From Saccoglossus kowalevskii (taxonomy: Eukaryota > Hemichordata > Enteropneusta > Harrimaniidae), in assembly GCF_000003605.2 (NCBI RefSeq), contig NW_003109083.1:311067-375066 (forward strand): DNA of 64,000 nt, given 5' to 3'. The notes under the pieces were generated by a model that saw only the letters and a list, made by a program, of their open reading frames with translations, had not been told where the DNA came from and ran no database searches. Each line of letters starts with the position of its first letter. Position 1 is the stretch's first letter. The translations under genes and the position numbers were made by a program. Positions 210 through 57,553 of this stretch are shown in pieces.

Positions 210-3200
210 GTTAGTTCTTCCGCCGATTTCTCGCAACCAACAACGTGATTTTTTATTTGGGATTTCGAGAAACATAACATGAATCGTTACGGCATTCATA
301 ACACAACACCTTGTCATGTTTCAACGTTTAAGTAGTCAGTTAACAAGGTCTTTCATAGTAGCATTTCTATGGGATTGACGTACTAGCATGAATGGGTTCA
401 ATTATCAGTGTTCACTGATGACGTCATTTGACTGTCCCTCTAGAGGCGAAATGACGCCAGGAAAAGCGGAAGTTTGTCGTCTGCTTCACAGCCCGTTTTA
501 TACCCGATATTTAGGGCATTTCGCAGCACATATAAGTTATTTTTATCGACAGAATTCATTCATAGATCTCAGATTTCATGTACAGAGTGTCAAAAGCCAC
601 ACCTCTGCTCCCCTTTAACACTTCAATTTGAAAATGTTACCTTTAACACTGCCCTTTAATCGGTTTAATTATGCTTAATCTGGTTAATTAAGGCTAATCT
701 GGTTAACCACGTTGTTTCAATCTACTTAGCTGTATACGAAGATGCCAACCCCGGGTTCTGCATCGGGGATGTACATGCTGTGGATAATGACATAGACGCC
801 GCTCACACAATACAGTACACTTGGTTATCGGGAAACGAAGACGATTTGTTCTTAATAGGCCACGACGGTAAGCGCACATGGCACCAGACGGAGCACGTAT
901 ACCACTGGAATATTGTGTGTTCAGATATTTACTAGTAAATAACAACATTCCGTTAAATATGTCATTCCAACGAACTCGAATAATAATTATAATTTGGTAT
1001 GTCAAACATTTTATATCATTTATAGGAATGCTGTATGTCATAAAACAACTCGATCGGGAGGCAATGCCTGCAGAAATTCAACTGAGGTTCCAGGCTCATG
1101 ACAATTCCCTATACCCACCAGTTATCGGTAATATTATGATAGAAATAATAGATGTCAATGACAACGCTCCATTTTTTAATCAGGTGATGAAATTGTAATT
1201 TCTTAGCACGCGATCACCATTGGCACACTGAGAACAGCCTGAGTTGAATTTATAATAAATACACATCGATATATTTGTCTAACTCTTCATATGAGAATAT
1301 TGATGGTGAATGTCATTTATTTTGGTCATAACAGTGTAAGTATTTTGTGGAATTGAATCTCTCTTCTCAAATAAAATGTAGTGTATTCAGTGTAAGTGTA
1401 GTGTATTCATTCAAATCAAAAGATAGTTGTATGCATGTTTATTAAGGTTTTGTTCATACATGAGTTGTTGAACACACTATATAGTTTATAATTTCATTCA
1501 ACTTTTTTTTCAGCCAAAATTGGAGAAAAATAAAATGTCAAAAAATTATATTATTATTATATGTAATGTTCTTGTGCAATCGATAATTATGAAAATTATT
1601 TATGGGTCCATGGGAAATTTCGTTATGAATTATTCCTAATTGAAATTTCTGAATTATCTTGTCGAAAAACGAAAAAAATTCACAATGTCGAAAACGGAAA
1701 GTCTTCATCGTAGTGTTAAAATTGCAATTTGTATCTTTCACTCACATCATGAAATAAAATCCGTCGATACATTATATGTGTCAGGAATTTACACTAGGCT
1801 GTGGACATTAATATCAACATTATTATATAAATTCTACATCCCCAGACTGCCATATTTGTCAACTTGAAGGAAAATGTGACAGTGGAAGTTGAAGTTGCGA
1901 TATTAATCGCAACTGACCTTGACGTAACGTCACCAAACTCTGACGTAAATTACAATATCACAGGTAAAGTACTTTACGTATGAATTTGCTATGCATTTTA
2001 ATTTAAACTCGATCCTTGGTGGATACTTATAACAACCCTGTTTATTTATATATCCATAGACGGGAACGAGGACAAAACTTTCCACATAGACGCCGCGAGT
2101 GGCAATCTCACCAGCGTTCGTTCGTCAGATTACGAAACTATGAAATCACGCATTTTGCGCGTGATAGCTGAAGACATGGGTGTTCCACCACTGACGTCAT
2201 CAATTACCGTGTATGTGGATATCATACCTGTGAACGAGTTCCCACCAGTTATCACTAGTGGTTACGCTTATGACGTGTCCAGAGATGCAAATATAGGTGA
2301 GAGGACGTTTAACTGTCATTCGAAGTTATTGGGAAGCACCTCTTAAAGACATCTCCATAATTGTTGTCGAGAATACCACGGCCTGTCATCAATAGGCACG
2401 TAGTTTGTTATTGTTAAAACTCAATCAAACGAGGTACGTCTTACTTTATTCCAATTTAGGGCACATTTTAGGCAAAGTACTCTCAAAAGACGAAGACTCT
2501 GGGAGAGATGGCGAAGTCAGATTTCATATCCAATCAGCGATTACTTTGCCCATTATTGTTGATCACGTGACCGGAGAACTAATCTTAATATCAACTTTAG
2601 ATCGAGAAATAAATACCTCATTTGAGTTCGTCGTTATAGTTACGGATAACCCAGAAAACCCAAATGATATCTTGTCAGCGACCCAAACCATTGTGGTGAA
2701 CATCAACGACGCCAATCAACATGCCCCTGAATTTAATCATGTACGTATTATAAGTAATATCTGATAAGAAAATATTTTATCTTAGCAACAAACTCTTCCG
2801 GTTTCTGCTCTTATATGTATACATTCGTATGACTATAGATCTGCACGATTGACAGGTAGAAATTCTCACTAGTTCATACAAATATGACCAAGCAAGTATA
2901 AAAAATCCCCTAATAACTGTTTTCAAAATTGACGCGAATGAATAACGTCCAGTAAATTCAAATATTTAAGCGCACGATTACTGTAAATTTGTTTTCACAT
3001 AACCTTGTAGGGATTTGTTGCTCTAGGAATGAGGCATACATTCGCATACACAGTATACTATATTCGATTAATGTCCTTTTCTTCTGCAATTACAGAGTAC
3101 CATGGTTGTACATGTAAAAGAAAATATCACAATAGGAGAACACGTCATAACTTTGGAAGCAACTGATCTTGACATGACGTCACCGAATAACAACATTCAT

Positions 3201-6200
3201 TATAACATTACAGGTTTGTTTTTATTTACTGAGTTGCTGCGGTTTTTATAGACGGCTACAGTTCATGAATCATTCTCAACGGCATATTCTTTTTTATCTA
3301 CAGCTGGGAACGAGGATGGTGTTTTTATCATTGATGGTACGACTGGTGATGTGACTGTCGCGATGAGTTTGAATAGCATGGGGTACATATTACCTGTTAT
3401 TGCTTTGGATGGTGGCATTCCTTCACTGACGTCATCAATTACCATATATGTAGATATCATACCTGTGAACCAGTTTAAACCAGTTATCACCAGTGACGTT
3501 CATTATAACGTGTCCAGAGACGCAAATATTGGTGAGAACACATTGATATTTGGTATTTGAGATAAATGTTTCTAATGTTTTGAAATAATCTCATTATTGA
3601 GTCACCATGACATATTAACATGACCTATATGATGAAATATTGTAATAAGTTAAAAGAAAATTCAATTGCTCACAGGGCACATTTTAGGTCAAGTATTCTC
3701 TAAAGACGAAGACAATGGGAGAGATGGTGAAGCCAGGTTCCGTATCGTTTCGGAAAGATCTCTGCCGATTATCATTGATCACGTGACAGGAGAACTGATT
3801 TTAATATCTGAATTAGACCGAGAAATGAATGCATCATTTGAGTTCGTCGTCATAGTAACAGACAACCCAGAAAACCCAAATGACATCTTATCAGCGACGC
3901 AAACCATTGTGGTGAATATCAACGACGCCAATCAACATGCACCACATTTTCCATCGGTGAGATCCTAAATTTAACTAAATTTATGATGTTATACACTGTT
4001 TCAGTGTTACTTCACTTTTCGCTTTTTTAAGATTCAATCAGTAATCTATTGCCTAGCCTGACAAGGTCGCGTGAGTTGCGCCCTCCGCGGTGCTCCAAAC
4101 CCAATACAGTTAGTGGGGTTTGATGCCGCTCGGCCGGCGAAGGCGCCATTCTTTTAGTTGTGTTGACCATTTACGCAAACATATCTATATGTATTTATTG
4201 GTGCTGAAACGAATTGATATCCTGAGCACAATAGAAAGAATAATTACAGCAACTACTGCTATAAAATAATTGTAATCCCAGCAATACATGGGAATTTTAA
4301 TCACACGGGGTACATTTGTTTATGGAATCAGTTAGGTTAGTTGAAATGGCATAAATGTAGCATTTACAATATGTGTTTTAATACACCCTATGTACACGAC
4401 ATCCCATATCATACGATTAATGTTGTATCATTTCAGAGTACAATGATTGTACACGTAAAAGAAAATATCACAGTAGGGGAAAACCTCATAACATTAAAAG
4501 CAACTGATCTCGACATGACGTCACCGAACAAAGACATTTACTATAACATCACAGGTTTGTTTTTATTTACATATTTTGATTCTATTTGATAGCCGACGTT
4601 TTAAAAATGGGTTATTTTTAGTAAATTTCATGCGATTATTCTCAATGTTTTTGACAGCTGGGAACGAGGATGGCCGATTTATCATTGATGACACGAGCGG
4701 AGATGTGACTGTTGCGACGACTTTAGATTCCACAAAGTCGTATATATTACGTGTTAGTGCTGTAGATGGAGGCATTCCTTCACTGACGTCATCGATTACC
4801 ATATATGTAGATATCATATCTGTGAATCAGTTTAAACCAGTGATCACCAGTGGTTTTATTTATAACGTGTCTAGAGATGCAGATATTGGTAAGTAAAATA
4901 TATATTATATTATATATTATATATTATATATTATATATATATATATTATCCTAATAAATTTTAAAGACTATTCGATTGCAACGATTGGTCATCGTTTTAG
5001 CAAAATCGCATGTTTTTTCATTAGATTCCATAGAATATGAACTATTTAGTTATAATCAATTCATCCAATAACCATAACACTGGCCTGTTTATATATTTTA
5101 GGATATATTTTAGGAAAGGTACTGTCAACCGATGAAGATGATGGTAGAGATGGTGAAGTTGGATTTAATATAGATCCAGAGAGAGCTTTACCATTTGTTA
5201 TTGATCACGTGACCGGGGAAATAATGTTGATATCGAAATTAGAACGCGAAGCGAATGCATCATTTGAGTTCGTCGTTATAGTGACAGATAACCCAGATGA
5301 TTCAAATGATATTTTGTCAGCGACGCAAACCATTGTAGTGAATATCAATGACGTCAATCAACATACACCATATTTTTCATCAGTGAGTCAAATTCCATAT
5401 TCTTCTTTACCAACTAACACTCAAAAGATTGGATGAACTGATTTTTTAGTGTAGCTAATCACATTAATGTCTTTATGATGGGAATATTTGAACTTTTCAT
5501 TTTTAGTTCCACACACCACATCAAATTTAGTAGGTTTCTCGGCCATTAGAAATAGAACAATTATGGTCAGTGTAATTATTCAAATTAGCAGATGATATGT
5601 GTTTATTTTGTAGGCATTAAATCCTACTATTTTGATGGTTTAGCAATTTCATCGAGTTTCAAGTTCACAACTCTTTGGCTGTTACATACATATATATAGA
5701 CATCGGTCCATTGACTAAAATGGTAAATTTAAAACGAACACGAGAATAGTCAATTTTATATATTGTTCTGTATCTCATGATGGACAAAAAATCTAAAGGT
5801 TCTGCTACGATGTGTTGAAGCAGCACTTATTCAATGAATCATTACTAGGCCATGATAAAATTGGTAAATATGCTGTGTATACACTGTATATGACAAGTCG
5901 TTAATGTTCTATATTACAGAGTACCATGGTTGTGCATGTAAAAGAAAATATCACAATAGGAGAACACGTCATAACATTGGAAGCAACTGATCTTGACATG
6001 ACGTCACCCAATAATGACATTCATTATAACATTACAGGTAAACCCGTTTCAGAAATAATTCGGTTCCACGACATCGTTTTTTCACCACAGGGTGATTATC
6101 TATTATATTTTATCAACAGCTGGGAACGAGGATGGCCGATTTATCATTGATGACACGAGCGGAGATGTGACTGTTGCGGCAACTTTAGATGCAACAAAGT

Positions 6201-9200
6201 CGTACGCATTACGTATTAATGCTGTAGATGGAGGCATTCCTCCACTGACGTCATCGATTACCATATATGTAGATATTAAACCTGTGAACCAGTTTAAACC
6301 AGTGATCACCAGTGGTTTTATTTATAACGTGTCTAGAGATGCACCAGTAGGTAAGGAACCCCGATGATATCATTTCGTGATGTTATATATTTGGGGATGA
6401 GATGTATTATTTTTTGTGGTAACGTGTAATGGATACATACGACGCATTCAATTATCGGAATTTATTTGTAACTTTCTTCTTATTTTTTGAATAGGGATAA
6501 GAAACATGCAAATATGTGCAAATATCTTGAGAGCCACATTCATATTAATATTTGATATTGTTTTATTATTATTGATCATGTATACAGAAACCAAGGAATT
6601 ATGCGCAATATGAAAAATACAAAAAAAAGTCAATAAAAAACAAGACCAGTTTAGTTACTTTGTATAATAAAGAATTGTTTCCAATCTACAGAAACGCTTA
6701 ACAGTTGAAAACAAACTATAATAAAGAATAAAATCTATTTTAACATTATAAGTGGTTTTAAAAGTGTACAATAATCCATAAACCAAGGCGTGGAAGATAA
6801 CTGTTCCTTTTTGTTACTATTCACCCAAAAAGTCCATGATATGTATAAACAAACTTGGTTTACAGATCTCAACAACTATTCTAAACTCGATAAATACAAA
6901 GATTTTAAGATCGATTTTGAATGTAAAAATATTTGCCTCTGATTAAATATAACAAGTTACGTTCTGCGCTATGTCAGCTTAGAACATCTTCCAACAACCT
7001 TCGGGTTGAATCTGATCGTAAATTAAACATACCAAGGAATAAGAGAATCTGTAAATTATGTAATTTACGGTTGGTTGAGGGTGAATATCATTTTTGCCTT
7101 GTATGCCCACGTTAGGAAAATCTTAGAAAAAAATATTTATCTATATAAATCAGTCAAATCAGACTTCAAATTTCTTCGTTTAATGCAGTTTGACAACTTA
7201 TTTGTATTTCAAATTTTTAAATTTGTATTCTACGCTTCTAAACACAGAGAAAATCTACTTAACCAGTTGTGACTTGAAGATTCAATGATTATTTAAAGAA
7301 ATCCGTCTTCATGTATTGTTTTTTTTCTATTTTTGGTTTATTGTGCCATAGTCCTGAGGCCATTGTACTGAATAAAATTTATATTCATTCATATTCATAA
7401 TTCATAAACAAGAATCGTTTTAATGTGCAGGTTTTGGTTAGAAATCCCTTAATTTGTATGCGAATGTTCGAGTTACACCAATAAGGTCAGATCCCAAGTG
7501 CACACCACGTTGACCATATATCGTAATAAAATGAATAAATTTGTTTCATTCAAATTGGTATGTCGTCTTTATGTAAATTACATAATAAAACAAAATCATT
7601 ACCATATTTATTAAGTACAGACTTCCATTTAGTTGGTTATCGTTACAATGTTACAGTAACCTATTCACACAAAAAAACCTTACACACGGTGATAGCGTGT
7701 GGAGCAAGAAACCCTCCATATTTGTGTTCATTTTTCGAGTTGTCCTTTTTGATCAGTTTTGTAGTTCCGAATTAAACTGAAAAAAACACATAATGTTAAT
7801 ATGAGTAGAATTTGGGAGAACGGACGATAAATATGTCAATTTTGATGATGGCAAACGTTTCAACACAGTAATTTTTATCAACAGCTGACAGGTGCTTTGA
7901 TGACCAAGACTTAAGTATGTTTTTTAATTTAATTTACTTTGGGACTGAAATTCAATTATGTTCAACGGAATCCGAATGTTAATAATATCAAGGGGAAATC
8001 TTCTCTTCTCTCGGGGTCTCCACACTTGCCAGGGGAGAATCTCGTCTCGTCTCTCTATCGCGTCCCCTTGAGGTACGGGATCGGGAAAGTCACTTTAACT
8101 TTACAGTCAAATAAGGCACACACAACGAAATACGTTTCAGCTCTCGTCTTAGTCGATCTTTTGGAGCACTCTATAAGACACAGCGCCCTGGGGAAAAGTC
8201 CCCAAGACTCTCACAAGGCTGAACCAAGACTCGCCCAAGACTGGACTCTCTCAAGGCTCGCCCCTGGACTCTCTCGGACTGCGTCTGTCGTGGAGTATTC
8301 GCCAAGACCAACTCAAACTCTCTTTATTCATTTTCAAAACTCTAACCAATTACAAAGCAGTAAAAAGACTCTAGGGCGTAACCTTCAATCATAAAGCCAA
8401 TCACACTAAGTACTGAGTACGTCATATCTTTTGATTAATCGTTCACTACATTAATAACTACGGATGTCAGAATAGCGACGGTATCTTGTAATTAGTTCCA
8501 AACCACTGAGCCAAGTTCCGTCCAAAACTTCAAATAGGCCTACACGATGACAGACATAACACAGCAATTCAGCTAATAATCAGCTAATTAAGTCGGTCAA
8601 CAGATACGCGAAAACAAATTCATGACAATAACGTCAATTGACCACCGTGACGTGACCATAAAACGTCATACTGAAGATTAAACTCCAATATTGTTTTCCA
8701 ATCTTAAAAGCTTACGATTTTTCAAAATTTTCCTTTAAACCACTGCACTGCTGTAAGTCCGAACGTACAGTCGCAGCTATAGACATTAATAATTCGGAGC
8801 CATCGAGAAACAAGGTTGTATCATTGACATATTGTGGTATCACATATTCCACGTCAATGATTTTAATATCAGATACATATTATGGGAAATGTATATTTCT
8901 CGTTCTAGTATCAGAATTGTTTGCCAACAGTTCATAGTTTTCAGAGTAGCAATACTCTACATGCAATCTTAAAGTCTGGTGGTCGTCGCGCAGCGCGTGT
9001 TCGAATTTCATGTTAACAAACGAGAGGCTGAATTGTTCGAAATACGGACATCGAGTTACAAAATGACCACGCCCATATTTCAGAAACTACTTTTGCGAAA
9101 CCACTCTCAAATTGTAACTCGAACTTTTAATAACACTTAATCGAACTTCTAGTTACGGGAAACACATATTTTTTTATTTTTAGTAATCGTGTGTAGACAT

Positions 9201-12200
9201 TCTCACGTTTGCAATCGCAGACTCACTTGTTGTTAATTAAGGTCCAAGCACCAATCAAACATTATTGCACGTAACATTGGCAAACAATTGAGCAATACGT
9301 TTGAGTAGCGTCAGTTGTGTGACGTTCGACACTCGTTTGTGTCTGCTTTTACAAAGTTCTTTCTCTCAAATATCCCACTACCCTAACGTGAGACCGGTTA
9401 CATAATATGGAAATAACAGTCGTAACAAATATTATGTATTAAACATGCAATATTTTATTGTGATTTTTTAAAATGTTACCACTGAGGACATTGCTTTTTC
9501 ATTCACAGGGCAAACTGTTGGTAAGATTCTCTCACAAGACGGGGATGATGGAAGATATGGCGAAGTCAGGTTCAGTATATATTCAGAGAAAACTCTGCCG
9601 ATTGTTATTGATCACGTGACCGGAGAACTTATCTTAGTATCAACTTTAGACCGAGAAGTGGACATGTTATTTGAGTTTGTCGTGACAGTGACAGATAACC
9701 CAGACGATCCAAATGATATCTTGTCATCGACACAAACTATTGTGGTGTACATCAACGACGCCAATCAACATGCGCCTGAATTGCCATATGTAATTACAAA
9801 TCTATGTTATAATCATCGTAAATAATAATTAGTATGCTTTACAAACAAACTATGTCAAATTATGATAAACACCGTCGTCATATAAAATCAAAACCACGAA
9901 TTTTAAGTGGTTTATTTCTAGATTGAATTAATTTCCGATATTTGTTTTCCAAAAATTGACTTCAAGCAACCTATTCTGATTGAGAGGTGCGTTTGTATAA
10001 TTCTATTACATTGTTTGTGACGACGGTTTCATTTATATTTTATAATAAATACAACTGACAATGACACAACGTCGTCGAACAGAGGTGAAGCGCTTGCTGG
10101 GATTGGGAGATTGAACCCCGTGTTTATTTTTGTATTGTATATTCTTTTGCAAGTAATTACGTTACTGCGTGAATACAATTCTTTTTTTTTTATACAATCA
10201 TATGCCAGATTTCAGCGTGTCACTATCCTAGGTATAAACACCGTATACAATAAATCACACGTATATCTATGTTGTATCATTTCAGAGTACAATTGTTGTA
10301 CATGTATATGAGAATGCCACAGTAGGCGAACACATCGTATCACTAAATGCAACTGACCTTGACATTACGTCATCGAACAATGACATTTACTTTACCATCA
10401 CGGGTTTGTAACAGCTATTGTACTCGTATTTTCTGAATGTTTTAGCACAAATTCTAATGATACTACTATTAGCGTGACTTTCCATGATATTTATCTTGTA
10501 TGTTCTTTGACAGACGGTGACGAATATGGCCAGTTTACTGTTGATCCCGCGTCTGGGGTACTGAGTGTCGCGGGATTTCTAGATTGTGAGACAATGACGC
10601 CAATGACGTCATACATATTAACTGTAGGTGTTGAAGACGGTGGTACACCTTCACTGACGTCATTCGTTACCATATATGTGGATATCATACCTATGAACGA
10701 GTTTCCGCCAGTTATTACCAGTGGTGTTCATTATAACGTGTCTAGAGATGCAGATATAGGTAAGAATCATGATGTCTATGATTGGTACTTATGACGTAGT
10801 AACGACTTTCATATGGACACTTGTGAATGGTCAGTTGCTCAGAATATGCTTCACCACACACCTTGTGGAGGTAGGGTTCAAATTAGTGCGATAATAATGA
10901 AAGGTGTCGTCTCAGACTAACTAAGAGACGACTGAGAGAACGTACTTGTATTCACGAGACAACAGTATAAACGATGCTATTTTTGCGTTCGCACATGAAT
11001 CACAGAAATGGTTTCAACTGTACGAAATAAAAGATTGGTTCTCAAAGCTTACTGATACTTTTACACGAAAATACTGGATTTACTCTAACCCACTATTAAC
11101 TGTCGTGCCGACAAAGAAGACCAATCTATAGTGAACTTAATTATTTTTTTGTAAATATTATATTCTGTCAATAATATAAAAAAATTCTATGTCATTTACA
11201 GGATATATACTAGGCACCGTTTTTTCAAACGACCAAGACTTTGGCAGGGATGGCGTCGTAAGATTCAGCATCAAATCAGAGGAAACTTCACCTATCGTGG
11301 TTGATCACGCGACGGGAGAGCTTATTCTGATATCCACGTTAGACCAATATTTGAATGAATCACTTGAGTTAATCGTCACTGTAACAGATAATCCGGAAAA
11401 CCCAACGAATATGTTGTCAGCAACACAAACGATTGTGGTGACAATTAAAGATATCAATCAGTATGCACCTGAATTTGAAACTGTGAGTAAGGACATTAAT
11501 ACTAATATTTCAATTTGCACTTGGACTAAACGTTTACTGTATTAGTTGCTATACACAATTTGTTCTTCATTACAGAGTACAGTTATTGTGCACGTGCAAG
11601 AAAACATCACTGCAGGAGAGCCTATCATAACACTTATTGCAACAGACTATGACGTGACGTCACCAAACAATGACATTCGTTATAAGATCACAGGTTTGTT
11701 AATAGTGTACTTCATTGATTCTGATTTCTTCAACATAAGCAATTTGCACAATTTGATTTAATTCTAATTGAACTAACTCGTTCCACAGCCGGAGAAGGCA
11801 GCGATAGATTTAATATAAACGCAGCGACAGGTGAAATCACCCTCATAGGATCATTGGATTACGAGCTCCCATCGTTCATGACGCCATATACAATACTCGT
11901 AACTGCCGAAGACGGTGGCACACCTTCACTGACGTCATCTATCGGTGTATACGTGAAAGTTATCCATGTGAATGAGTTCACACCAGTTATTACCAGCGGT
12001 TCGTCTTATAATGTATCAGAACACGCACTTATAGGTAAATATACGGGTTTACTGTCATCCTGTGATATCCACTTACGTTATTGGCTGGTAGTTATTTGCC
12101 GCAATGGACACAGTCGTACAATGTCACAGACTTTCCCGAAATCATTATAAACCACATTTTCTATGAATATAATTTGTTTTCGGTGTTGTAATTCTACACA

Positions 12201-15200
12201 GGTCATGTATTCGGCAAAGTCCTGTCGACGGACCAAGACGCTGGAAGGGATGGTGAAGTCAACTTTAATATTCAATCGGAACACGCTCTACCCATCGCCA
12301 TTGATTACGCATCGGGGAACCTCTTTTTAATATCTACGCTAGACCGAGAAATTAATTCATCTTATGAGTTTGTGATTATTGTAGCAGATAATGCAGAGAA
12401 CCCAGGGGATGTGTTGTCAACGTCACACACAATAACGGTCAGCATACTGGACGTCAACGACAATGTCCCCGTGTTTGACCAGGTATGGCAATTTGCAAAA
12501 AAAAAAAATACTCTAACTTATCCACATTGATTGTTTAAGATACGTCCATATGACGTATGCAATGTATATAATGCATATATTTGTGATTGTGTTAATTGTG
12601 ATGTCCTCATTACATTGTTCCATAATTATGAATCGTTCCAGCTATACCCTCTGTCTGTATCCTTAAATGAGTTGACGACCCCGGATGAAATACCTTTCCA
12701 TGTTTTCTCGGCTAGTGACCCGGATGAGGGCGTGAATTCCCTACTAACGTATGCAATAGAGTGTAAGTAACTCGAGTATGTGAATGGTTACCGTACTTTG
12801 TAATTGGAACAAAGTCAATATCGTTTTTCACAATATTGAGGCGTTACCTTCCATCATAGTACCTGCTACGGTCTTTTCTTCCATTTGCTTTTAGCTGGAA
12901 ATGAAAATGGTGTGTTTAGTATAAACACCGTGACTGGTGAACTAACTCTGGTTGGAGTGTTAGATTACGAAACAACTCCAAAATACGAGCTATGGATTAT
13001 AGTGCACGACAACGGAAACCCGTCACTGACGTCATCGACCACAATTCACGTAAATGTAGCTCCGGCGAATGAACACGCGCCAGTTCTTACTAGCCCAAGC
13101 ACGTACTGGTTATCGGAAGACGCCGTCATAGGTAAACATGCACATTTCACAATAACTATTATATTTATATTTGTAATACTTTCAGTGTGTATTTGCTGAT
13201 GGTTAGATATTATACGATTTCACAGGTACAATTTTCGGTCAGCTACTTGCAACTGATGAAGATGTCGGAGAGGATGGTAATATCAAATTCAGCATTGAGT
13301 CTGACGACAACTTACCCATATCAGTCAATCAGGTGACTGGTGAACTGTTTTTGACTGGGATACTGGACAGAGAAGGCAATGCATCATATGAAGTCGTTGC
13401 AGTGGCAACAGATACACCTCAGGATTCTTCGAAGGCACTGTCAGGTTCACAAATACTCCGAGTCAATATTGATGACGTCAATGACAACCATCCATTATTT
13501 GACGAGGTGATGACTGTTAATACATTTATGTACTTCAATAATATGACAGTAGTAATGATATTTGCTGACTATGATACTGACTATTCTTTCAATTTCTGAC
13601 TTTATAGGCCTCGTTTGTAGCATCGTTGAGTGAGACAACTACGACCGGATTGCCAGTTTTGAATCTGCTGGCCACCGACCCAGATGATGGAAGCAATGCC
13701 GAACTGTTGTTCGCTATAACAGGTGATATATGTAACTACTAAATACCAACTACCTTTCATTTAGTGTTCTGTTACAATCAGTGTCTGATTTACATAATTG
13801 TTTGTATTTGTGTGCAGCTGGAAATGATGACAGTGTGTTTGAAATTGACCGTATATCGGGAGAGATATCTTTGATACTAGCTATGGACTATGAATCTGTT
13901 AAGTCCTACACATTAAACGTGACTATTTCCGATCAAGGGACTCCTGCTCTGACGTCATCGTCCAAAGTATCAATTGAAGTCACGCCTGAAAATGAATTTG
14001 CCCCGATCATCACCAGTGATGTGTTTTATGAGATACGAGAGGATGCAGCTATAGGTAAGACTGATGAACGTAATAGTTAAACTATTCTTCTTCTGAGCAA
14101 ACCTCACAATAAATGTGTGTTTTAATTTTAATGAAAAGTTCAAGCTTTTGTTGCAATCTGTTATATGTATTTGTAGGTCACTTTATCGGCCACGTTCTGG
14201 CAGTCGACGACGACCATGGTCAGGACGGGCACTTCCTTTTCAACATTGAATCTGCAACAGTAACTGCCCCAATAGCCATAGATCACAAGACAGGCGAGCT
14301 CTTCTTAGTGTCTAAGCTGGACCGAGAAACAACTTCCTCGTACGAGTTGATTGTCGTGGTAACCGATACTCCGAGAAATCCCGAAGATGCCCGATCGACC
14401 TCCGTTACAATAACCATTACTGTTAATGATGCTAATGATAATACACCTAAGTTTGACGTGGTAATGGAACATTGTCTATTTTATTGTCATTCTTTATCTT
14501 TGTTTTGCGAATTTAAACAAACTTGTTATTGGCAAACGCACACTTATTGGTGGTTAAATGTATTGCTTACTGTATTTCAGGTTGCCATCGTTGTATCATT
14601 ACCGGAAATGACGTTGCCTGGTTTAGTTTTGACAACGTTGATGGCATCTGACCCGGATGAAGGAAAGAACGCAGAAATGACCTTCAATATAACAGGTTAG
14701 AGCATGTATTTGAATACTGGGGTGGGGTAAAGTGGAGGTGAGGATTTGTCGTGTGGCTTGCGATTTTTTGAAACCAACATTTTGTTCGTGAACAAAATAT
14801 AGATGTGGTAGTGTGAAAGAATTCAGATCAAAAATAATTTTGATCTAATAATTACATTAGTCACCAATCGTTATAACTGATAATCAACAAATATCACTAC
14901 ACTTTACTGTACAATCTTAACTTTCAAGCTGGGAACGAGGATGGTGTATTTGACCTGGACAGTACAACAGGCCACCTTACCTTACAAGGCCAAGTAAACT
15001 ACGAATCGAACATCAAATCTTATATTTTGAGTGTGGACGTCACTGATCAGGGCATTCCATCTTTGAAGTCAGTTGGTGTAGTTTACGTCGAAGTTGTCCC
15101 ACAAAATGAACATGCACCGGTTATCGTCAGTAGATCTCATTATAACATTCCTGAAGATGCACCAAAAGGCAAGTTACTATACACAACATAATACAACACA

Positions 15201-18200
15201 TTCGTCTCCTCATTGCCAGCTTTGTTTTTTTAACGCCATTTAGGGTAGACTGCAGGCTGGCGTCGTTTATTCGCGTAGTACGTATATACAATAATAATGT
15301 ACATTTCCGATATATATTTCCGACTCTGTAGGTTCGGTTATATGCCAAATTGTCGCCACTGATGACGATGACGGAATGGATGGTGACGTCAGGTTCATTA
15401 TACAGTCTCCGTCATATATACCGTTCTCAATTGATCACGTGACCGGGGAAGTATTCTTAGTGTCTGATATTGACAGGGAAACGCTTGATTATTATGAATT
15501 TGTCGTCATGGTAACTGACCGTTCGGGTAATCCTGTCGATATTTTGTCCGTTTCCCAAACGATTACAGTGGCAGTGGACGATGTAAACGACAATCAGCCT
15601 CGTTTTGATTTGGTAAGTGGCAATGTCATAATAGTCAAACGGCGCAACACGCCACCAATTTTCAAATTCAGCTGCAGGAGTGACAATATTTCACGACAAT
15701 AAGGAATTTATTCTTTACAAACACGGAAATTCCTATGTCTGTTTATCAAAAGTGTTTCGATTACACGACTGCGAGCTTTGTAATCAGGTGTTGATTGCTG
15801 CTGATTTCCAATGTTGCCTTATACATGTAGTATTGTAATATAGTATGTTCATCGGCACGTGAAACACAGCTGGTCTGTGATGTGTATGGTACATAAGCTT
15901 TTGACAATTTAAGTTGAAACCTGTAGTCAAGTTGTCGTAGAAAAAATCTCAGTACTAAATATTGGGCTAACTGTCACTTTCATGTCACCTTTCTTGTGAT
16001 TCGCGTACCCTAGCGACGAAGCGCTTCTAGGAAAGATCTATTGGGAATGCACATTTGGTTTGCCCGTTTTACGACCCATTTATAAACGTGTTTATTCATT
16101 ACAACTACTATAACCCCACATGTCTTGGCACATTTTGAGGATTAGTGTCAATTTTCAAATACATTGTAGTTTTTTGTAATCTCTAAAATTTGAATATGAA
16201 AATTCGTTTCAAATGTGAATATGTATGTTTTAGCAAATATTTGTCGTGTATTCTGCGAATCTTATCATGTTTGTCACGTTGTATACATCAATACGGCAGC
16301 GTGTGTTCGACTATTTCGTGTAAGCAAACAATGTATTTTTCAATTTATCTGTTACGTGACGACGGGAATAGTTACAGTACTTGCATGTCAACACTAAATT
16401 TATTTATTTGCAGACCAAAATGAGAGTATCAGTGAGTGAAAATGCCTTTATTGGAGAAAATCTGGAAATATTTTCCATCTACGCTTCAGATCAAGACATA
16501 GGTAGTAATGCAGAGTTTACATTCCATATAACAGGTATCTAAATACTATAATACCAAACATCCTATCTATTGTAACTAAAATCGGTTTGCAATGTTTTGT
16601 GATTTTTTAGCTTTAGTTTAGTTAAAAACATCAACAAGAAAACAAAACACAGATAGAAACACAAAAATTAGCTCAACAAGATTTCCACATCAAAGTTCAT
16701 ACCTAATATAGCCTACAAAGTCACAACAGCGATTTATTTCTAGCAAAGTCCTAACGCGACACCTGCAATAAACAACAAAATACACATTAATACAAGAATA
16801 TAATGTAAATCTAAGACATAATATAAAAACGATCAATTAAATCAAATTGTTATGTATACATATACTACATAATATATATAAAATTTCACACATATCAAAT
16901 ATACACTACCTTGCCAAATTTGCCAGGTCTTCATTGTCTGTTTAAAATGCAATTTGTCACTAACATATACTAACTATTCCCGGTAATTTATTTCGTTCTT
17001 TAATATCTGTAAGAAAACAATGACTAATATATAATGTACAATTCGAATAAACTTTAATTCTACAGGTGGGAATGATGAGGCGATTTTTGGAATGAATACA
17101 ACCACCGGAGACGTAAGTCTCGTGAGAGCACTGGATTATGAAACAACGAAGTTACACTTGCTGGAATTAACAGTGCGAGATTCTGGTCTCCTGTCGTCCA
17201 CTGCTACGTTGCAGGTGTTGGTGGGCCATGAAAACGAACACGCTCCAACGATTACTGGGGCCATGCCTTACTTAGATGTCAGTATGCCAGAAGACACAGA
17301 GCCTGGTAAGCAGACAGACCTGACTATTGTTGATTTCCAATGATATATCAATTCTGATGATGCAATTATACACTTCAAACTACGTCACATGCAACAAATG
17401 AAAGCGATTTCAAGAATATATCACCTGTGCTTCGTAGGTATCTGAGAACGTTCTTGTAAAATGTGTCTAACATAAACATCGATAGTATCAACATTTGCAT
17501 TTATTCACATGAGCACGTCTGTAACGTCCATCGATGAAAGTACGAATATATGGAGGGTTTCATCTATATTGTCCGCAATGATTCTAACCGACAGAATTGT
17601 ATTCTACACATGGACTGTTACAGGCCATGTGACGGTATAGCCAAGAACTGATTCAGTGGGTTAAACTGTCAATTATGCTAGTAATTTTCTATTTTGTCAC
17701 GTGATAGTACAACTAACATTTAGATTATCGTATAAACAAGAACAATTAACGCATTTATTGTTTTTATTTCATAGGAAATGTTGTTTTGACTGTCGAAGGC
17801 GACGATCAAGACGATTCAATTGATGGAAAATTTGTATTCAGTCTTGATCCAGGGACACCTTTTATAATTGATCGGTTATCTGGGGAAGTTATTTTGGTGA
17901 AAGAACTCGACAGAGAAGCTATCACCTCGCATGAACTAAAAATTACCATTACTGACCTGTCAACAAGTAATGTACTATCTTCGTCCGCGACCTCGACTAT
18001 AACAGTAGTTGACGTAAATGACAATCCACCGAACTGCACAGTCGATATATCGATGCAGCCCGTGTACGAGAATTTAAACGTAGGTGGCGTAGTTGCGAAA
18101 CTGTCCTGCAATGATGGAGATACCGGTGTCGGTGGTATTGAGTATAAACTCGTGGCTGGTGAAGGCAGCAATCACTTCAGTATTGACCCACAATCGGGTG

Positions 18201-21200
18201 CAATCAAAGTGGCAGTCGCTTTAGATTATGAAGTGGAGACTTACTATTCTCTGTACATAGAAGCTGCAGACCATGACATTGTTAGCTTTACCACTTCGTT
18301 GAACATCCCAGTGACAGTGATTGACGTGAACGACAATTGGCCGTTGTTTATATTAGACACCAATACGTTAAGTGTCATGGAGAACGTCGTTCCTGGTACA
18401 AAAATAGCGAAAGTAGCAGCGTACGACGTCGATAGTGCCCCAAACGCTGATATCTACTATAATATTTTTTCCGGGGACGATGAAGGGCAATTTGAAATTG
18501 ATTCGTTATCGGGGATTGTGTCTGTTACAGCAACGCTGGATAGAGAAACTATCGAACAGTATGTATTCGTTATACACGCAGCTGACAGCGGTTTCCCCGA
18601 ACTCACAGGAAGTAGCACAATCACTCTGAATGTATTAGATATAAATGATGAACCACCGTTATACACGGAGAATGTATACAATAACAATGTTGATTCTGAC
18701 GTCGATATAGGTACTACAATCATGACTGTTACAGCCAATGATCCAGATCTTGGCCCAGGTGGAGAGATTTTGTACAACATTACATACGGCGATGACTTCA
18801 ACCTCTATGACATTGATCCCGTGACTGGAGACGTGTTAACCACGCATTCGCTTATTGACGCTGCCGGTGTGTACGCTCTCGTTGTAACAGCCTCCGACAA
18901 GGGTGACCCTAGTATTGAAACTGATGTTACTGTTGTCATTGAGGTGATGGAAACTATAGCTCCTTTAACAATCCACGATTTCATCTTTGCAATTGCCGAA
19001 GACGCCGCGATTGGAAGCGAAGTTGGTACGGTGGTCGGAAACCGCGAAAACCTTTATGTTATTCTTGCGTCCAACGTTGATGGGTATTTCAACATAGATG
19101 AGACGACCGGTGTGATCCGCACATCTGACATGCTTGACCGAGAAACTATCGCTGATTACACGTTAGTTGTGCACGCCGAGAGCGAGGACGGGATGTACTT
19201 CTCTACGGCCGACGTTAGAATTGTTGTTTTAGATACAAATGACAATACACCGGTATTCGCCAACACGTCGTATTCCGTAGATATCATTGAGAACCTGGCA
19301 TGTGGTACGTCGGTATTACAGGTGACTGCCTCGGATAAAGATTCGTTACTAAATAGAGCTATTATATATTCGATCGACCAAGCACATACAACTGCCAATG
19401 AACATTTTAACATTGACAGCAGGGCTGGTATCATCACCGTCAAAGTTCCACCCGATTATGAACTAACCAACGAAATATCTTTTAATGTCATAGCCACCGA
19501 TTCTGGATTGGAGCCACGGAGTTCTTCCGTATCCGTTGCCATAGTGATTCTAGATGAGGACTTTGACGGGCTATGCTACGACCCACCAATATACAGCATA
19601 GATCTCCGACACGATCGCATTGGTGGGCTAGTGGAGGTTTTGAACAATTCGGACTTTGGATTTGCAGGTTCCAGAAACTACACATATGCACCAGTGGAAG
19701 ACACCAATGTGTTCACGGTGCATCCGTTTGGGGAGATAACATTGAATGCACCATCGTCGAATGCATTAGTTTCTGGATCCAAAACTGTATTCCGTGTCGT
19801 TGCTAGAGTACTGCAAGTAAACGGACGAATATTGACGTCACCTCTAGCGACTGTCCGAGTTGATGTTTATCAAGCAGAGGACCACCTTGTTGATTTCGAA
19901 CTTGATTTAACTGATGCCGAGTTTCAGCACTATAGGTATGCATACCAACATTTACCGAAATGCTACTACTATATTACAATATATTGTTGATTAATCAAAA
20001 TAGTATTCATAGATAATTTACAGGTGTATTGTCCAAATAACATGTCATATAACATCTGGTAATTGAATATATTTTGCTCTCTACTCTCAGCAAGGACTTC
20101 GTTTCTCAGTTGTCGACGATATTCCCTGAGTGCAGAGTCACAATACATTCAACACAAGAAAACTCACCGACACTCCCTGGCACATTGAGAAGACTACTGC
20201 AGTATCGTGCGGAGTAAGTTCCCTTTACACCTACATTTGTAATGTTCATGTCACAGAGACACACCTACACTAACATACGTTTACCAACACTCGGTCGAAT
20301 GTACGTCATAATCCAGGAACTGATTAATATATCAAAACAACTTCACCTGCACAGATTTGGATTAATGATTATTATTTTGGCTATAGTTAATTTATATTTG
20401 ATGTGCGGTCATCGCACTTCAAGTGTGTTTATTATAATTGTAAAATGTAACTGGTATTCAAATGAACGTAATGGCTAATTGTAACAACCATAAGCACGTT
20501 ACCATAACAAAACTACTATGTGTCTCAATTTATTTTTATTTCCCTAGAACTACTATCGTTACTGTTTATGTGGTGACCAATCCTATAAGTGACTTTCTAG
20601 ACGGGATTGAATTTGACAAGAGATTCATGGACATTGATGAGCTACTTACTACGTTGCAGAAACAGGTGAATGGAACGCCAGCGGACATTTTGATGACAGA
20701 CAATTTTGCACATTTCCATATACTTAGCGTGACACGTTCTCTGGTGAAGACACCTTGGATTCGGACGATGTTAGGCATTCTGTTTACGACACTGAGTTCA
20801 TTTGGTGCACTGTGTTTACTGGTTTTAACGCTGTTGCTTTGTTGTTGTAGAAAGAACATGGAGAATGAGTGAGTGTTGAGTTATCTATACGTGTTTTCCA
20901 TTTCCATTAGGCATTGCAGTATAGATTACCGAGAATGTACTTATGCGGTAATTAATTTGGCAACTGTGACGTTTTCATAATATCAAAATTCTGCTTTATT
21001 CATTTTATAGTAAGGTCGCTTCTTCACCACCAGTTAGCAGACAAGTGACACCTAGAGGAGGTTCCCGTGCATCGTCACCTGTGCGTTTTGTTTATACTTT
21101 GAGAGATCCATGGAGGACACCAGACGGTAGAGAAGATAGAAGAATAGCTTCTCTGACACACAAGGTACATATACTTAGTATATGATATTGTTATTATCAT

Positions 21201-45100: not shown

Positions 45101-47945
45101 CAGCATCAAGGTGTTTACTTCCATACTATTTGTCCTTAGGCCATATCAAGCGGTCATGAACGTATGCCATTGATTGCTCTATTTACACGGCTACTGGTCT
45201 ACAGAATCCAGGGTTGTCACTCTGTGATACTGTCACCCATGCAAGCACTGAGAAACACATACACCCAACGCAATAACACTAAGGGTTCTCCTTGTCAAGT
45301 CCCAACTCAAACTTATATGATTGATTTCTGGTTGAATGCCCTTCACAATATAATATACACGAACTACGGAACACGATTTAAAGGAAATGCTCTACATGTG
45401 CTAAGTGATTTAAAATTGCCACGAAAGTAATTTCCAACGCAACTATCTAATGCTGCCGGGATTGTTTGTGAAGTGTCGTGATATGATTGTGACAGGAAGC
45501 AATCAATAAATTCAATCACCCATCGACAACGTGTCATTTATGTTGTGCAGTACAATTTAATGGCCGCCGATATTACTCTGAAATGCACATCACATTGTGT
45601 TCATTCATATGTTTAAGCAATCACGGTTCTGCTTTACTAAGTTGGTATTTTTTTTAAGTTTTCAAATAAAATATATGGGTATGGCGTGATGTAATAGTTA
45701 TCACGTGATTTGGGAAGCTGCAGTCGCATTTATCCAATCATCGTGGGAAGTGTGCCCATTCCACGCAATTTAGACAAAGGTGGAAAACAAACACTAGTGA
45801 TTGACATTGACATATTGTTGAATGTCAGGCGTACTGTAGAGATAGGATGGAAGATATATATAAAGAGTAGTAAGAAATACGGAGAAAAGTGAGCGGATAA
45901 AACTTTCTCATTTTAACAGTCCTAGGTTCCGAGTATAGTGATTCGTATCGCACAAGACGTTGGTCATTCTAGACAAACATTAACGCACATTTGAGCGTTA
46001 TATCCATGGAATATGTGAACGTTACGACCAACGTGTGGCGGCAAATGCCAGCAACAAGCTTGATTACACATCATTACAAGTGACGAGTATGTAAGCTTTT
46101 CGGGCAAACCTCTAACATCTCAATTCGAACTCAAAGCCTGGCCATCATCACTCCTTTCTCAAGTTCTTTTCCACATGCTGGCGATGAAAACAGATACCGC
46201 AATGAACGGAATGCAAACAGATTCTTAATCAGTGGTGCCGACTCTGGTGCTGATTCGCAACCAATTCTGTAGATTGGATTTGCAGCTATTCTGATTGGTG
46301 GCTGATGTTCAGATGTGACATATGCATTACTCAACGTCCTCTCCAATGCATACACACGTGACAAAATAGGACCAGTCCAGAGCACCCAAACAACTGTTGT
46401 CAGCAGCCGCGTGAAACTAAATACTCGAACTCCCGGATAATGCCGTTTCAACTATACTAAGACTGGTACCACAACATTAGAAGACAACTGATATATATAT
46501 ATATATACCTATGTCGAAATTTAAATTGTGTTTTTCGACTTATTATTTCCCCTTATTTAGAACACTCTCTGATCGTCCTCGCATATACTGAGTACTCCGC
46601 CTCCAGAGTTTACCATTCTTTACTTTAGCTTTGCATTACACACATAACTACAATAACAACTGCTTGAAAGGCCAACACATCGTATACAGTGATTTATAGA
46701 CGAGAGTATTGTTAAAGTTGTCTTAGTCATTGTGTCATATATATTTCACTATCCATTAGAATCTATATCATACAAGAATGTTTGACATGAAGCAACATTT
46801 TTCTATAATTTTCCGAGATCAAATACAATGTAATTAAGATCAATATCAAGCTGGGGTATAGAGACACGAAGGATTTGTGAACAGTGTCTGGAAATCATTA
46901 TTTCCGTGGGTTCCGTTTTCGCCATGATGCGCGGTACAGTCGTGATGTAACTGTCTTCAACTTGGTTGTTTATGCTATTTTAGTTTCAATTAAAGCAAAC
47001 ACGTGATAATGCTATCACGGACAATAATCGAGTATATATTCGCCGTGATCTCACCGACACGCTGTATTGGAATCACCTGCGGGGAATTATCTATCTTGCA
47101 GAATGCTAGGTTTGCGAGGGCATATGCAAATGATGGAGGTGAATTGACGGTAGTGCGCATTTAGCGCAATCCTTCAACATTTACCAGGCGGCCTTTGCTC
47201 TAACTCTGTCTTTTGTCACACCGGATGTACAGCGGGAAATTGTTGTCCATCAGCACGCAATGTCACGCACTTTAGAAACAACTGTGACCTACAGCTGCGA
47301 TAAAAATGAATCAATCGCCGAGTTAAGCTCTGTATGAAAGTAGTTGGGAGCTAGCGAGTGTGAAAGGAAGAAATTTACATCAGTATCGGCGAGGCTAGAG
47401 GTCCCCGTTGTCCTAAATATAGCCTTTTCATTGAAGTTGACAAGCAGGCCAAGCTAGCTATGTTGAAGGAAAGTAATTCCAACAGAAAATCATATTGAAT
47501 GAAACGTGGTACATTAAAGGTCGGCGATGCACAAACAGTGTACTGCCCGCACTTCTCACGATTGTGTATGTTTTTTTAATCATAATATAATCTCGCAGTG
47601 GGTGAATATCTACAATGTAATCCACCAACATAGAAGACACTTTGAAAATATATTGAATTATAGATATGACGTCACTTTCTTACCTCCTCCGTTTTTGTAG
47701 CATAAGTAGGGGAATCGCCATACGTTACCGAGACCAATGGCGAATCCGACACAGGAGAGCAAGAAATCGAATCTTCCAGTCCATTGACCACGGTCCGGAA
47801 GGTCAGGCTCGGTCTGTTCTGTCTTTTCATCCAGAGTGCATGTTACTTTGGTGTCATTGGTGTCCATTTGCACGACCGAGTTTTGCATTTCGAAACTTTG
47901 ATCGTCTTTCCCATTGCCATCCTTCTCCCGATGCGTCAAAGTCAT
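27047..47945 (-). CDS. SLC6-family Na+/Cl- dependent transporter, GABA transporter 1-like, 13 coding exons
   Basis: Plasma-membrane symporter that moves an amino-acid transmitter, probably GABA, into cells with Na+ and Cl-. Exons, in order: 47684-47945, 40321-40452, 37847-38054, 36221-36353, 35152-35286, 34482-34585, 33554-33678, 32214-32326, 31676-31807, 28953-29055, 28696-28796, 27962-28129, 27047-27160. These total 1,830 nt, 609 residues plus stop, the usual family length, with all phases agreeing and twelve transmembrane helices. By recall the sequence fits GAT-1 best. Trp76, Tyr148, Leu305 and Thr407 match GAT-1 Trp68, Tyr140, Leu300-region and Thr400. Na+ and Cl- site residues Asp402, Gln298, Ser302, Asn334 and Ser338 are present. 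An invertebrate amino-acid carrier with another substrate is possible. An in-frame TGA six codons upstream supports the start. Confidence 0.96.
27581..27760 (+). mobile_element. Possible hAT-like DNA transposon or MITE fragment
   Basis: It begins CAGTGGCGG followed by a G-rich run, a C-rich reversal and CTGAAAAAATGAAACCC, then an AAAATTTGCCTCTCAAAATA stretch. I recall this start from widespread hAT-type repeats in marine animals. No matching terminal inverted repeat is visible at the other end. It lies in the last SLC6 intron. Confidence 0.4.
27962..28129 (-). CDS. SLC6 exon 12: TM11 end and TM12
   Basis: Residues 517-572. [20 protein letters not shown], the conserved [17 protein letters not shown], and TM12 ending [13 protein letters not shown]. 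Exact 168 nt, phase 0 at both ends. Confidence 0.95.
28696..28796 (-). CDS. SLC6 exon 11: loop and start of TM11
   Basis: Residues 483-516. [20 protein letters not shown] then [13 protein letters not shown]. The [11 protein letters not shown] block is close to SRPCIWWKLCW of GAT-1. Phase 0 at the donor GTAAGT. Confidence 0.94.
28953..29055 (-). CDS. SLC6 exon 10: TM10
   Basis: Residues 449-482. [20 protein letters not shown], then TM10 continuing [15 protein letters not shown]. The acceptor is TTCTAG and the donor is in phase 1. Confidence 0.95.
29056..31675 (-). other. SLC6 intron 9 (2.6 kb)
   Basis: Bounded by the donor after exon 9 and the acceptor before exon 10. No additional exon, RNA gene or repeat recognised. 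Confidence 0.7.
31676..31807 (-). CDS. SLC6 exon 9: end of TM8 and TM9
   Basis: Residues 405-448. [19 protein letters not shown] contains Thr407 (GAT-1 Thr400, a substrate-pocket residue). [20 protein letters not shown] is TM9. Phase 0 at both ends. Confidence 0.95.
32214..32326 (-). CDS. SLC6 exon 8: loop 4 and first part of TM8
   Basis: Residues 367-404. [20 protein letters not shown] is the conserved loop 4, followed by TM8 up to LGLDSQ. Asp402 and Ser403 match the Na2-site residues 395-396 of GAT-1. Phase 0 at the donor. Confidence 0.95.
33554..33678 (-). CDS. SLC6 exon 7: TM7
   Basis: Residues 325-366. [19 protein letters not shown] includes Asn334 and Ser338, which correspond to GAT-1 Asn327 and Ser331 (ion sites). 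[20 protein letters not shown] leads into extracellular loop 4. Confidence 0.95.
34482..34585 (-). CDS. SLC6 exon 6: TM6
   Basis: Residues 291-324. [20 protein letters not shown] holds Gln298 and Ser302, equivalent to the chloride-site Gln291 and Ser295 of GAT-1. The unwound SYG segment lines the substrate pocket. It then reads [14 protein letters not shown]. Phase 2 at the donor. Confidence 0.95.
35152..35286 (-). CDS. SLC6 exon 5: TM5
   Basis: Residues 246-290. [20 protein letters not shown] is TM5, followed by [18 protein letters not shown] of extracellular loop 3. Phase 0 at both ends, 135 nt. Confidence 0.95.
36221..36353 (-). CDS. SLC6 exon 4: end of loop 2 and TM4
   Basis: Residues 201-245. 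[20 protein letters not shown] then TM4 ([16 protein letters not shown]), ending KWTGK in phase 0. This is a strongly conserved SLC6 block. Confidence 0.95.
37847..38054 (-). CDS. SLC6 exon 3: TM3 and extracellular loop 2
   Basis: Residues 132-200. TM3 carries [13 protein letters not shown], with Tyr148 at the GAT-1 Tyr140 position. The large extracellular loop has the conserved cysteine pair ([11 protein letters not shown], Cys172 and Cys181) and N-glycosylation sequons at Asn184 and Asn188. It ends in phase 2 in FWE. Confidence 0.95.
40321..40452 (-). CDS. SLC6 exon 2: TM2
   Basis: Residues 88-131. [20 protein letters not shown] is TM2, then [19 protein letters not shown] forms the conserved loop into TM3. 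Acceptor CTTTTCAG, donor GTAAGT, phase 1 to 1. Confidence 0.95.
40651..40715. repeat. (CAAA)n microsatellite
   Basis: Two runs of CAAA units separated by a short interruption (ACAAACTAACC), within SLC6 intron 1. Confidence 0.9.
46491..46507. repeat. (AT)n microsatellite
   Basis: Eight AT units in SLC6 intron 1. Confidence 0.85.
47684..47945 (-). CDS. SLC6 exon 1: N-terminal tail and TM1
   Basis: Residues 1-87. A hydrophilic cytosolic tail ([15 protein letters not shown]...) leads to [17 protein letters not shown] and the SLC6 signature [18 protein letters not shown] of TM1. Phe68 sits where vertebrate GAT-1 has Tyr60. The start ATG is at 47943-47945, with an in-frame stop TGA at 47964-47966 before it. 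The exon ends in phase 1 before GTAAGA. Confidence 0.95.
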
Positions 47946-48180
47946 GCCGAAGGTTTGTCCGGTTCAGCTAAGCAACAACTTGCAGCAAAGTGCGTCACAA
48001 TAACAAACAACAGACAGCTAACAAACGCCCACAGTTTCAAAGGTACGTATGGCAAGCCAAGCGCTGCACTGGACTGGTATCTCCGCTTTGCACGGTAACG
48101 TGGTACGGATTGTTTACTCAATGCACTGGCGCTTTCTTCAAAACCGAACAGTTTCTTGTTGAGGCAGTGACGTGATTACG
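47946..48180 (-). promoter_or_regulatory. 5' leader and putative promoter side of the SLC6 gene
   Basis: Sequence just upstream of the start codon, less AT-rich than its surroundings and with several CpG. It includes the in-frame stop that fixes the start. No TATA box or initiator is clear, and a further non-coding exon could lie upstream. Confidence 0.3.
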
Positions 48181-56932: not shown

Positions 56933-56945
56933 AATGTTTAACTTT

Positions 56946-57553
56946 TTCGACTTCTTCTTAAAAACTACAAGCCTGAATGCTTTGATACTTGGTGTTATTA
57001 TACCTGGGGTAGACCTCTCTTAGATTTGTTCATTTCATGATGATATCTTCAATTCTTTAATTTTGGTGAATATTTTTGTAATTTTTGGTAAAAAGTGATA
57101 TTTTCGACTTCTTGTTAAAAACCGCAAGTTTGATTGCTTTGATATTACATGTATGGATACTACATGTGGATCTCTCTCAGATTTGTTTATTTCGTGATGA
57201 TATCTTCTATTCTCTAATTATGGGGAATATTTTTGTAATTTTTGGTAAAAAGTGACATTTTCGACTTCTTGTTAAAAACCGCAAGTCCAATTGCTTTGAT
57301 ATGACATATATGGGTACTACATGTGGATCTCTCTCAGATTTGTTCATTTTGTAATAATATCTTTAATTATTCTCTAATTGTGGTGATTATTGTTGTAATT
57401 TTTGGTAAAAAGTGATATTTTCGACTTTTTCTTAAAAACCGCAAGTCCAATTGCTTTGATATTACCTCAGTCAGATTTGTTCATTTTGTAGTGATATCTT
57501 TAATTCTATCATTGATGAATATTTTTGTCATTTTTTGGTGAAAAGTGATATTT
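56946..57553. repeat. Four-copy tandem array of a ~157-bp unit
   Basis: Units start with TTCGACTT at 56946, 57103, 57260 and 57420, giving periods of 157, 157 and 160 bp and a last copy of about 134 bp. Shared blocks are TTAAAAACYRCAAG, ATTGCTTTGATA, CAGATTTGTT and TTTTTGGTAAAAAGTGA. Units 2 and 3 are the most alike, and the fourth has an internal deletion. It is probably part of a larger dispersed element together with the flanking simple repeat. Confidence 0.85.

Follow-up and report, generated by a model that had tools for sequence, protein, structure and literature searches.

We analysed a window of 64,000 nucleotides from the hemichordate Saccoglossus kowalevskii (contig NW_003109083.1, positions 311,067 to 375,066 of the forward strand; coordinates below count from the first letter of this stretch). 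The + strand of the window carries a gene of the cadherin superfamily that resembles the giant non-classical cadherins. Much of its ectodomain is encoded by a ladder of nine full exon triplets, named A, C and B in their order along the gene, followed by a tenth A-C pair (Table 1); the ladder starts with exon A1 at 1846 and ends with exon C10 at 17305. Exons A measure 115-121 nt, exons C 228-246 nt and exons B 281-284 nt, and a full module of 627-645 nt (209-215 amino acids) is always divisible by 3, with phases 0-1-1-0 in all nine full modules. With the B half of module 10 counted in, all 30 ladder exons have an AG acceptor, and 28 of 29 donors are GT. The sole exception is exon C9, whose donor is of the GC-AG type (GCAAGT, 15169-15174).

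This exon model is based on reading frame, homology and splice sites in the 64-kb window. The ladder was searched in all six frames with iterated profiles seeded with a single exon of each type, which gave E-values for the ladder exons between about 2e-11 (the weakest A) and 1e-34 (the best B), and all 75 reported matches lay on the + strand within the first 20 kb. The triplet count, exon lengths and phases given in a first-pass annotation of this DNA, made from the letters alone, proved correct to the base when compared with the profiles and splice sites. The same annotation had described the tenth module as partial, which is right for the A-C pair in the ladder but not for the protein: the tenth B half is present and opens a large exon of 2161 nt, so that module 10 is complete. 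The protein thus contains 20 cadherin repeats in ten modules of two, and about six further repeats come after them. With the exons masked, neither DNA profiles nor tblastn searches of the window revealed degenerate extra modules in the introns. The best matches there corresponded to an upstream exon of the gene (E=0.0011 with the B profile, E=0.006 with tblastn), and everything else had E of at least 0.28.

The first-pass annotation had also proposed that duplication copied two repeats at a time, on three exons, and this was borne out by phylogeny. In a tree of 27 single repeats (the 20 of the ladder and seven others of the gene), the ten odd repeats were monophyletic with an ultrafast bootstrap support of 90 and the ten even repeats with 94, which rules out a single-domain repeat unit. 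Distances between modules were concordant across the exon types (Mantel correlations of 0.83 for A and C, 0.74 for A and B, and 0.83 for C and B; p<=0.0042). From the odd and even clades together with the agreement of A, C and B exons, we therefore conclude that the two-repeat, three-exon module is the duplicated unit. Module distance also rose with separation along the array (Mantel r 0.41-0.47, p<=0.013). The even-repeat tree branched in the order 10, 8, 9, 7, 6 and then 1-5 (supports 63-100), and among the odd repeats 7-10 were split from 1-6. We infer that the array may have grown away from the membrane, a direction read from one tree with no separate test.

Each full module is frame-neutral, as had been claimed for this array. 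Any one of the nine could be removed in an in-frame deletion test with 0 stops, and the frame also stayed open after removal of any C-B-A block, any B-A-C block or any single C exon; removal of a single A or B exon broke it. A change in array length is thus possible in principle. Length variation at the present day is unproven, and the state of the introns argues against recent gain. In all, 100 intron pairs were aligned (a count taken from the tested ranges, with pairs that include the 3158-nt C-B intron of module 4 left out; the other 28 ladder introns measure 82-801 nt). Two scored above z=3 (4.0 and 3.1); the seven intron tests made within modules 2-4 did not include either of them and gave z-values from -0.4 to 2.3. 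In a simulation of one intron with 30 replicates per level, z was at least 10.4 at 13% divergence, at least 4.8 at 20%, at least 3.4 at 30% and at least 0.1 at 40%.

Three observations weigh against an old array. Intron edges are identical over 16 nt after A2 and A3, and over 17 nt before A3 and A5 (4420-4436 and 10269-10285), where the adjoining A exons have a synonymous divergence (dS) of 0.33. In addition, lenient blastn alignments ran through the short A-C introns for some module pairs, carried by the exons on either side. Past the short edges, the introns did not align; on these grounds, a recent whole-module duplication was rejected, and none of the modules appears to be a recent gain. 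The youngest whole-module duplication looks old, as judged from these comparisons.

A more dynamic alternative, in line with the first-pass annotation, is an actively length-variable array, in which unequal crossing-over adds or removes whole modules and alleles or species differ in repeat number. The nine frame-neutral modules, and likewise the C-B-A and B-A-C blocks, would permit this, neighbouring modules are more alike, and the loss of a module would leave no trace, which keeps some room for the idea. Nevertheless, no two modules have intron sequence in common past the short edges, which recent copies would have, and the species' own assembly gave no second copy with a B-exon query. That search of the 572-Mb genome returned 16 matches at E<=1e-5, 10 of them at the locus and 6 elsewhere at 30-39% identity, and hence neither a second allele nor a close paralogue, although parts of the assembly consist of N and the absence is unproven. 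No relatives were found in viral contigs. Altogether, we regard ongoing length variation as unlikely.

Within this old ladder, the more recent changes appear to be the size of an exon. We compared codons for shared residues in 131 exon pairs with at least ten such codons, and made 135 contrasts. The top share of identical codons belonged to C3-C4, with 63 of 66 (median of the 131 pairs, 0.44), and the second highest to A2-A4, with 32 of 36. For the same two modules, 3 and 4, only 38 of 60 codons were identical in the B exons and 21 of 30 in the A exons, and the contrast between C3-C4 and B3-B4 was significant (Fisher p=8.4e-6; 0.0011 after Bonferroni correction over 135 contrasts). All 32 fourfold sites of C3-C4 were identical; at the nucleotide level, the C3-C4 pair differed at 19 of 231 positions and the A2-A4 pair at 5 of 118. 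The likeness faded close to the exon edges. For C3-C4, seven of the ten nearest flanking bases matched on each side; in the 50 bases beyond these, matches fell close to chance (16 upstream, 14 downstream), the successive counts outward after the exon being 7/10, 7/20 and 7/30. Downstream of A2-A4, the corresponding counts were 3/10, 4/20 and 7/30. Approximately unbiased (AU) tests rejected the A tree with the C exon data (p=0.005) and with the B exon data (p=0.023), and a run test on silent sites gave a global p=0.021 for modules 3 and 4 within the set of modules 1-4. Exon-limited gene conversion is the best account that we can offer for C3-C4 from these sequence comparisons, and for A2-A4 the case for it is no more than suggestive.

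Several results weigh against such exchange. The discordance is strong for a single exon pair, C3-C4, and even for modules 3 and 4 the contrast between A and C exons (p=0.0012) was no longer significant once corrected. A2-A4 taken alone was likewise non-significant after correction (A versus B, p=0.016), and its upstream flank had 7/10 and 7/20 matches and then, at 31-60 nt, 14/30, a count somewhat above chance. The other four of the six AU cross-tests missed 0.05 (p 0.067-0.20), and in three other module sets the best global p of the run test was 0.098, 0.22 and 0.62.

One explanation dispenses with conversion and ascribes the likeness of C3 and C4 to selection on coding and splicing signals, with introns that turn over fast. 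In other comparisons, silent codons do tend to be kept slightly better in C than in B exons (modules 2-3, p=0.048; modules 2-5, p=0.028; modules 3-5, p=0.016; all uncorrected). Selection of this kind should act on all C exons, yet complete fourfold identity occurs in this one pair only, and we consider it an improbable cause. Still less probable, in our view, is that modules 3 and 4 arose by a recent duplication of a whole module, after which exons A4 and B4 were overwritten from other modules and the introns replaced by insertions. The two modules are sisters in concatenated trees (support 74 and 63), silent sites put A4 nearest to A2 and B4 nearest to B1, and the C-B intron of module 4 does contain an interspersed repeat. 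This scenario is at odds with their A-C introns (103 and 82 nt), which are dissimilar (z 0.3) though they adjoin the near-identical C exons. Least probable of all is that the triplets are alternative Dscam-like cassettes among which splicing chooses instead of including all: modules and exon C alone are skippable in frame, but each exon encodes just a part of a repeat, single A or B exons are not skippable in frame, and nonsynonymous divergence (dN) was below dS in 25 of 25 listed exon pairs (>68% identical, modules 1-6), which indicates constraint and is not proof of joint inclusion.

The module period recurs in the calcium-binding motifs, whose names (DXNDN, XEX, DXD, XDX, DYE and DRE) follow PMC5120219. 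DXD, XDX and the linker Asn of DXNDN were kept in all ten modules at both joints (20 of 20 ladder repeats for DXD and XDX). None of the ten odd-to-even linkers has the first Asp of DXNDN and every one of the ten even-to-odd linkers does, although the ten linkers are related copies and not ten independent events. The second Asp is replaced in the odd-to-even linkers by Glu in seven modules and by Gln in three (modules 2-4), and the odd repeats of modules 2-4 are also without the Glu of DYE. A second set of losses divides the array in two halves: modules 6-10 keep the Glu of XEX in their even repeats and the second Asp of DXNDN in the even-to-odd linker, whereas modules 1-5 have Arg and Gln, respectively, at these two positions. 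These XEX and linker losses lie in different exons (C and B) of the same five modules. The Glu of DRE was lost in module 5 alone.

From the motifs, we predict that calcium is bound incompletely at all joints of modules 1-5 and at every other joint of modules 6-10. Partial or complete ligand loss accompanies bent or flexible linkers in other cadherins, according to the accounts in PMC5120219 and PMC8325961, and the ligand losses seen here therefore predict regularly spaced flexible hinges along the ectodomain. As a point against such hinges, the Asn of DXNDN, DXD and XDX retained at both kinds of linker make at least one calcium per joint likely.

Outside the ladder, the gene contains an upstream cadherin repeat on two exons, whose intron positions differ from those of the ladder, and the large exon with its intronless repeats. 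In total, 27 repeats were laid out (20 in the ladder, one upstream and six downstream), in keeping with a giant cadherin, for which we expected many more than seven. The Pfam scan covered modules 1-2, module 10, the large exon and three further open frames, and modules 3-9 were typed by the exon profiles. Matches to PF00028 reached E=2.2e-52 in modules 1-2; over A10-C10 of module 10 joined to the large exon, E was 8.5e-109 and 7 PF00028 stretches were recognised. A hydrophobic stretch at about 20768-20848, picked out by eye, is apparently a putative transmembrane helix. The 121-residue membrane-proximal region before it, placed as the membrane-adjacent domain of CDH23 is, had no PDB relative at E<=1. 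The candidate tail frames scanned had no Pfam match above cut-off.

Table 1. Features of the cadherin gene and of its introns, in window coordinates.
Feature	Position	Strand	Content	Evidence
Upstream exon	730..867	+	First half of non-ladder cadherin repeat, phase 1 to 1	Frame with AG/GT edges, by eye
Upstream exon	1026..1183	+	Second half of non-ladder repeat, ends DVNDNAPFFNQ, phase 1 to 0	Profile matches 1025-1180
Module 1	1846..2740	+	A 1846-1963, C 2060-2296, B 2460-2740	Profiles, frame, splice edges
Module 2	3096..3956	+	A 3096-3213, C 3304-3531, B 3676-3956	Profiles, frame, splice edges
Module 3	4437..5382	+	A 4437-4554, C 4658-4888, B 5102-5382	Profiles, frame, splice edges
Module 4	5920..9789	+	A 5920-6037, C 6120-6350, B 9509-9789	Profiles, frame, splice edges
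Interspersed high-copy repeat	7983..8630	+	About 640 nt of the C-B intron of module 4	Genome search
Module 5	10286..11482	+	A 10286-10403, C 10514-10759, B 11202-11482	Profiles, frame, splice edges
Module 6	11576..12482	+	A 11576-11693, C 11789-12034, B 12202-12482	Profiles, frame, splice edges
Module 7	12642..13506	+	A 12642-12762, C 12895-13131, B 13226-13506	Profiles, frame, splice edges
Module 8	13608..14460	+	A 13608-13722, C 13818-14054, B 14177-14460	Profiles, frame, splice edges
Module 9	14581..15612	+	A 14581-14695, C 14929-15168 (GC donor), B 15332-15612	Profiles, frame, splice edges
Module 10, ladder part	16414..17305	+	A 16414-16534, C 17066-17305	Profiles, frame, splice edges
Large exon	17775..19935	+	Module 10 B half, then about six intronless repeats	Profiles, frame, Pfam
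Exon	20091..20213	+	Membrane-proximal non-cadherin region	In-frame splice edges
Exon	20548..20869	+	End of membrane-proximal region and hydrophobic stretch; exon end provisional	Frame, by eye
Open frames	20970..24121	+	Candidate cytoplasmic tail; exon structure provisional	Frames

The repeat in the C-B intron of module 4 is abundant in the genome, with 39 other copies at 92-96% identity among 40 scored of 1891 candidates. DNA profiles and tblastn found no module remnant in this intron, and a retroelement fragment suspected by eye at 6927-7112, in the same intron, had no Pfam support. Elsewhere in the window, we observed an exon of an SLC6 sodium:neurotransmitter symporter on the - strand (47661-47963; PF00209, E=6.5e-19) and a tandem repeat of 3.3 copies of a 157-nt unit (56944-57465). 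Rfam gave nothing at gathering scores.

Among known cadherins, CDH23 and the Fat/Dachsous group are close to the ladder gene in architecture, with tens of cadherin repeats in a row, what appears by eye to be one transmembrane stretch, and neither EGF nor LamG domains in the regions given to Pfam. Chains of CDH23, PCDH15 and FAT4 were found among its PDB relatives, but the top matches were CELSR1 and protocadherin gamma B4; the queries were modules 4-5 and the stretch from module 10 through the large exon, and the scores favour long multi-repeat chains. With these best matches and a membrane-proximal region that has no PDB relative, we did not assign the gene to CDH23 or to any other orthologue. 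A type III classical cadherin or a CELSR is not supported either, as the Pfam scan of modules 1-2 and 10, the large exon and the three further frames gave neither EGF nor LamG domains. A survey of echinoderm cadherins counts CDH23 among those of the group, and the word "exon" is absent from its main text (PMC10734073). As a separate observation, further cadherin genes lie on another contig of the S. kowalevskii genome (C347, about 302-337 kb), where their frames are long and poor in introns (1754 and 1634 amino acids); many-repeat cadherins encoded by long exons are therefore found in this genome too.

Our searches of the open-licence literature showed no title or abstract on a cadherin ladder made of two-repeat exon units. 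Higher-order units of several domains duplicated in series are known from the super-repeats of titin and nebulin, which are other protein families; the unit of the ladder is two cadherin repeats on three exons. The Dscam arrays also consist of short, tandemly duplicated exons of a cell-adhesion gene with introns between them, with exons of 160 and 130 bp and introns of about 200 and 100 bp in the arrays described in PMC3236188. Gene conversion between exons was not found there for Daphnia Dscam arrays 4 and 6. Dscam exons are mutually exclusive, whereas those of the ladder are apparently joined in series and one pair of them shows exon-limited homogenisation. As for the linkers, Protocadherin-15 and Drosophila N-cadherin likewise lose residues of DXNDN, XEX or DYE at certain linkers, where the rod bends or is flexible, in the descriptions given by PMC5120219 and PMC8325961. 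The losses in the ladder differ in that they repeat with the module period and are partial, not complete.

Taken together, we propose that this giant non-classical cadherin ectodomain combines an old ladder, later exon-limited conversion and calcium-poor hinges, a joint reading to which we give a probability of roughly two in three. The ancestral unit would have comprised two cadherin repeats, with introns already dividing it into three exons, A, C and B, and with phase 0 at its outer ends; its head-to-tail duplication would have led to a row of ten modules, the membrane-near modules branching first and the membrane-far ones last. The introns would have diverged afterwards, leaving a ladder that is old as a set of modules. 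Later gene conversion may then have homogenised single distal exons, clearly C of modules 3 and 4 and perhaps A of modules 2 and 4. It would have been confined mostly to exons, because only these were still homologous enough. The resulting long ectodomain with its regular flexible hinges is predicted to serve as an adhesive tether.

In a bolder reading, modules 2-5 of the distal part would make up a recognition surface that recombines. Conversion would reassort exons among them, alleles would carry different mosaics and perhaps different module numbers, and the hinges would let modules pair in register between cells, as in a self/non-self or cell-identity cadherin. We see this as a long shot. 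More interesting than the variation in length with which the array had first been associated are the exchange of single exons that we propose within an old ladder and the calcium-poor joints that we predict at regular intervals. The gene would provide a clean case of giant cadherin growth by a two-repeat, three-exon unit, and it separates two processes that are easily confused, namely old whole-module duplication and later homogenisation of single exons. It would also link a period at the level of the gene to a period of predicted calcium-poor joints at the level of the protein.

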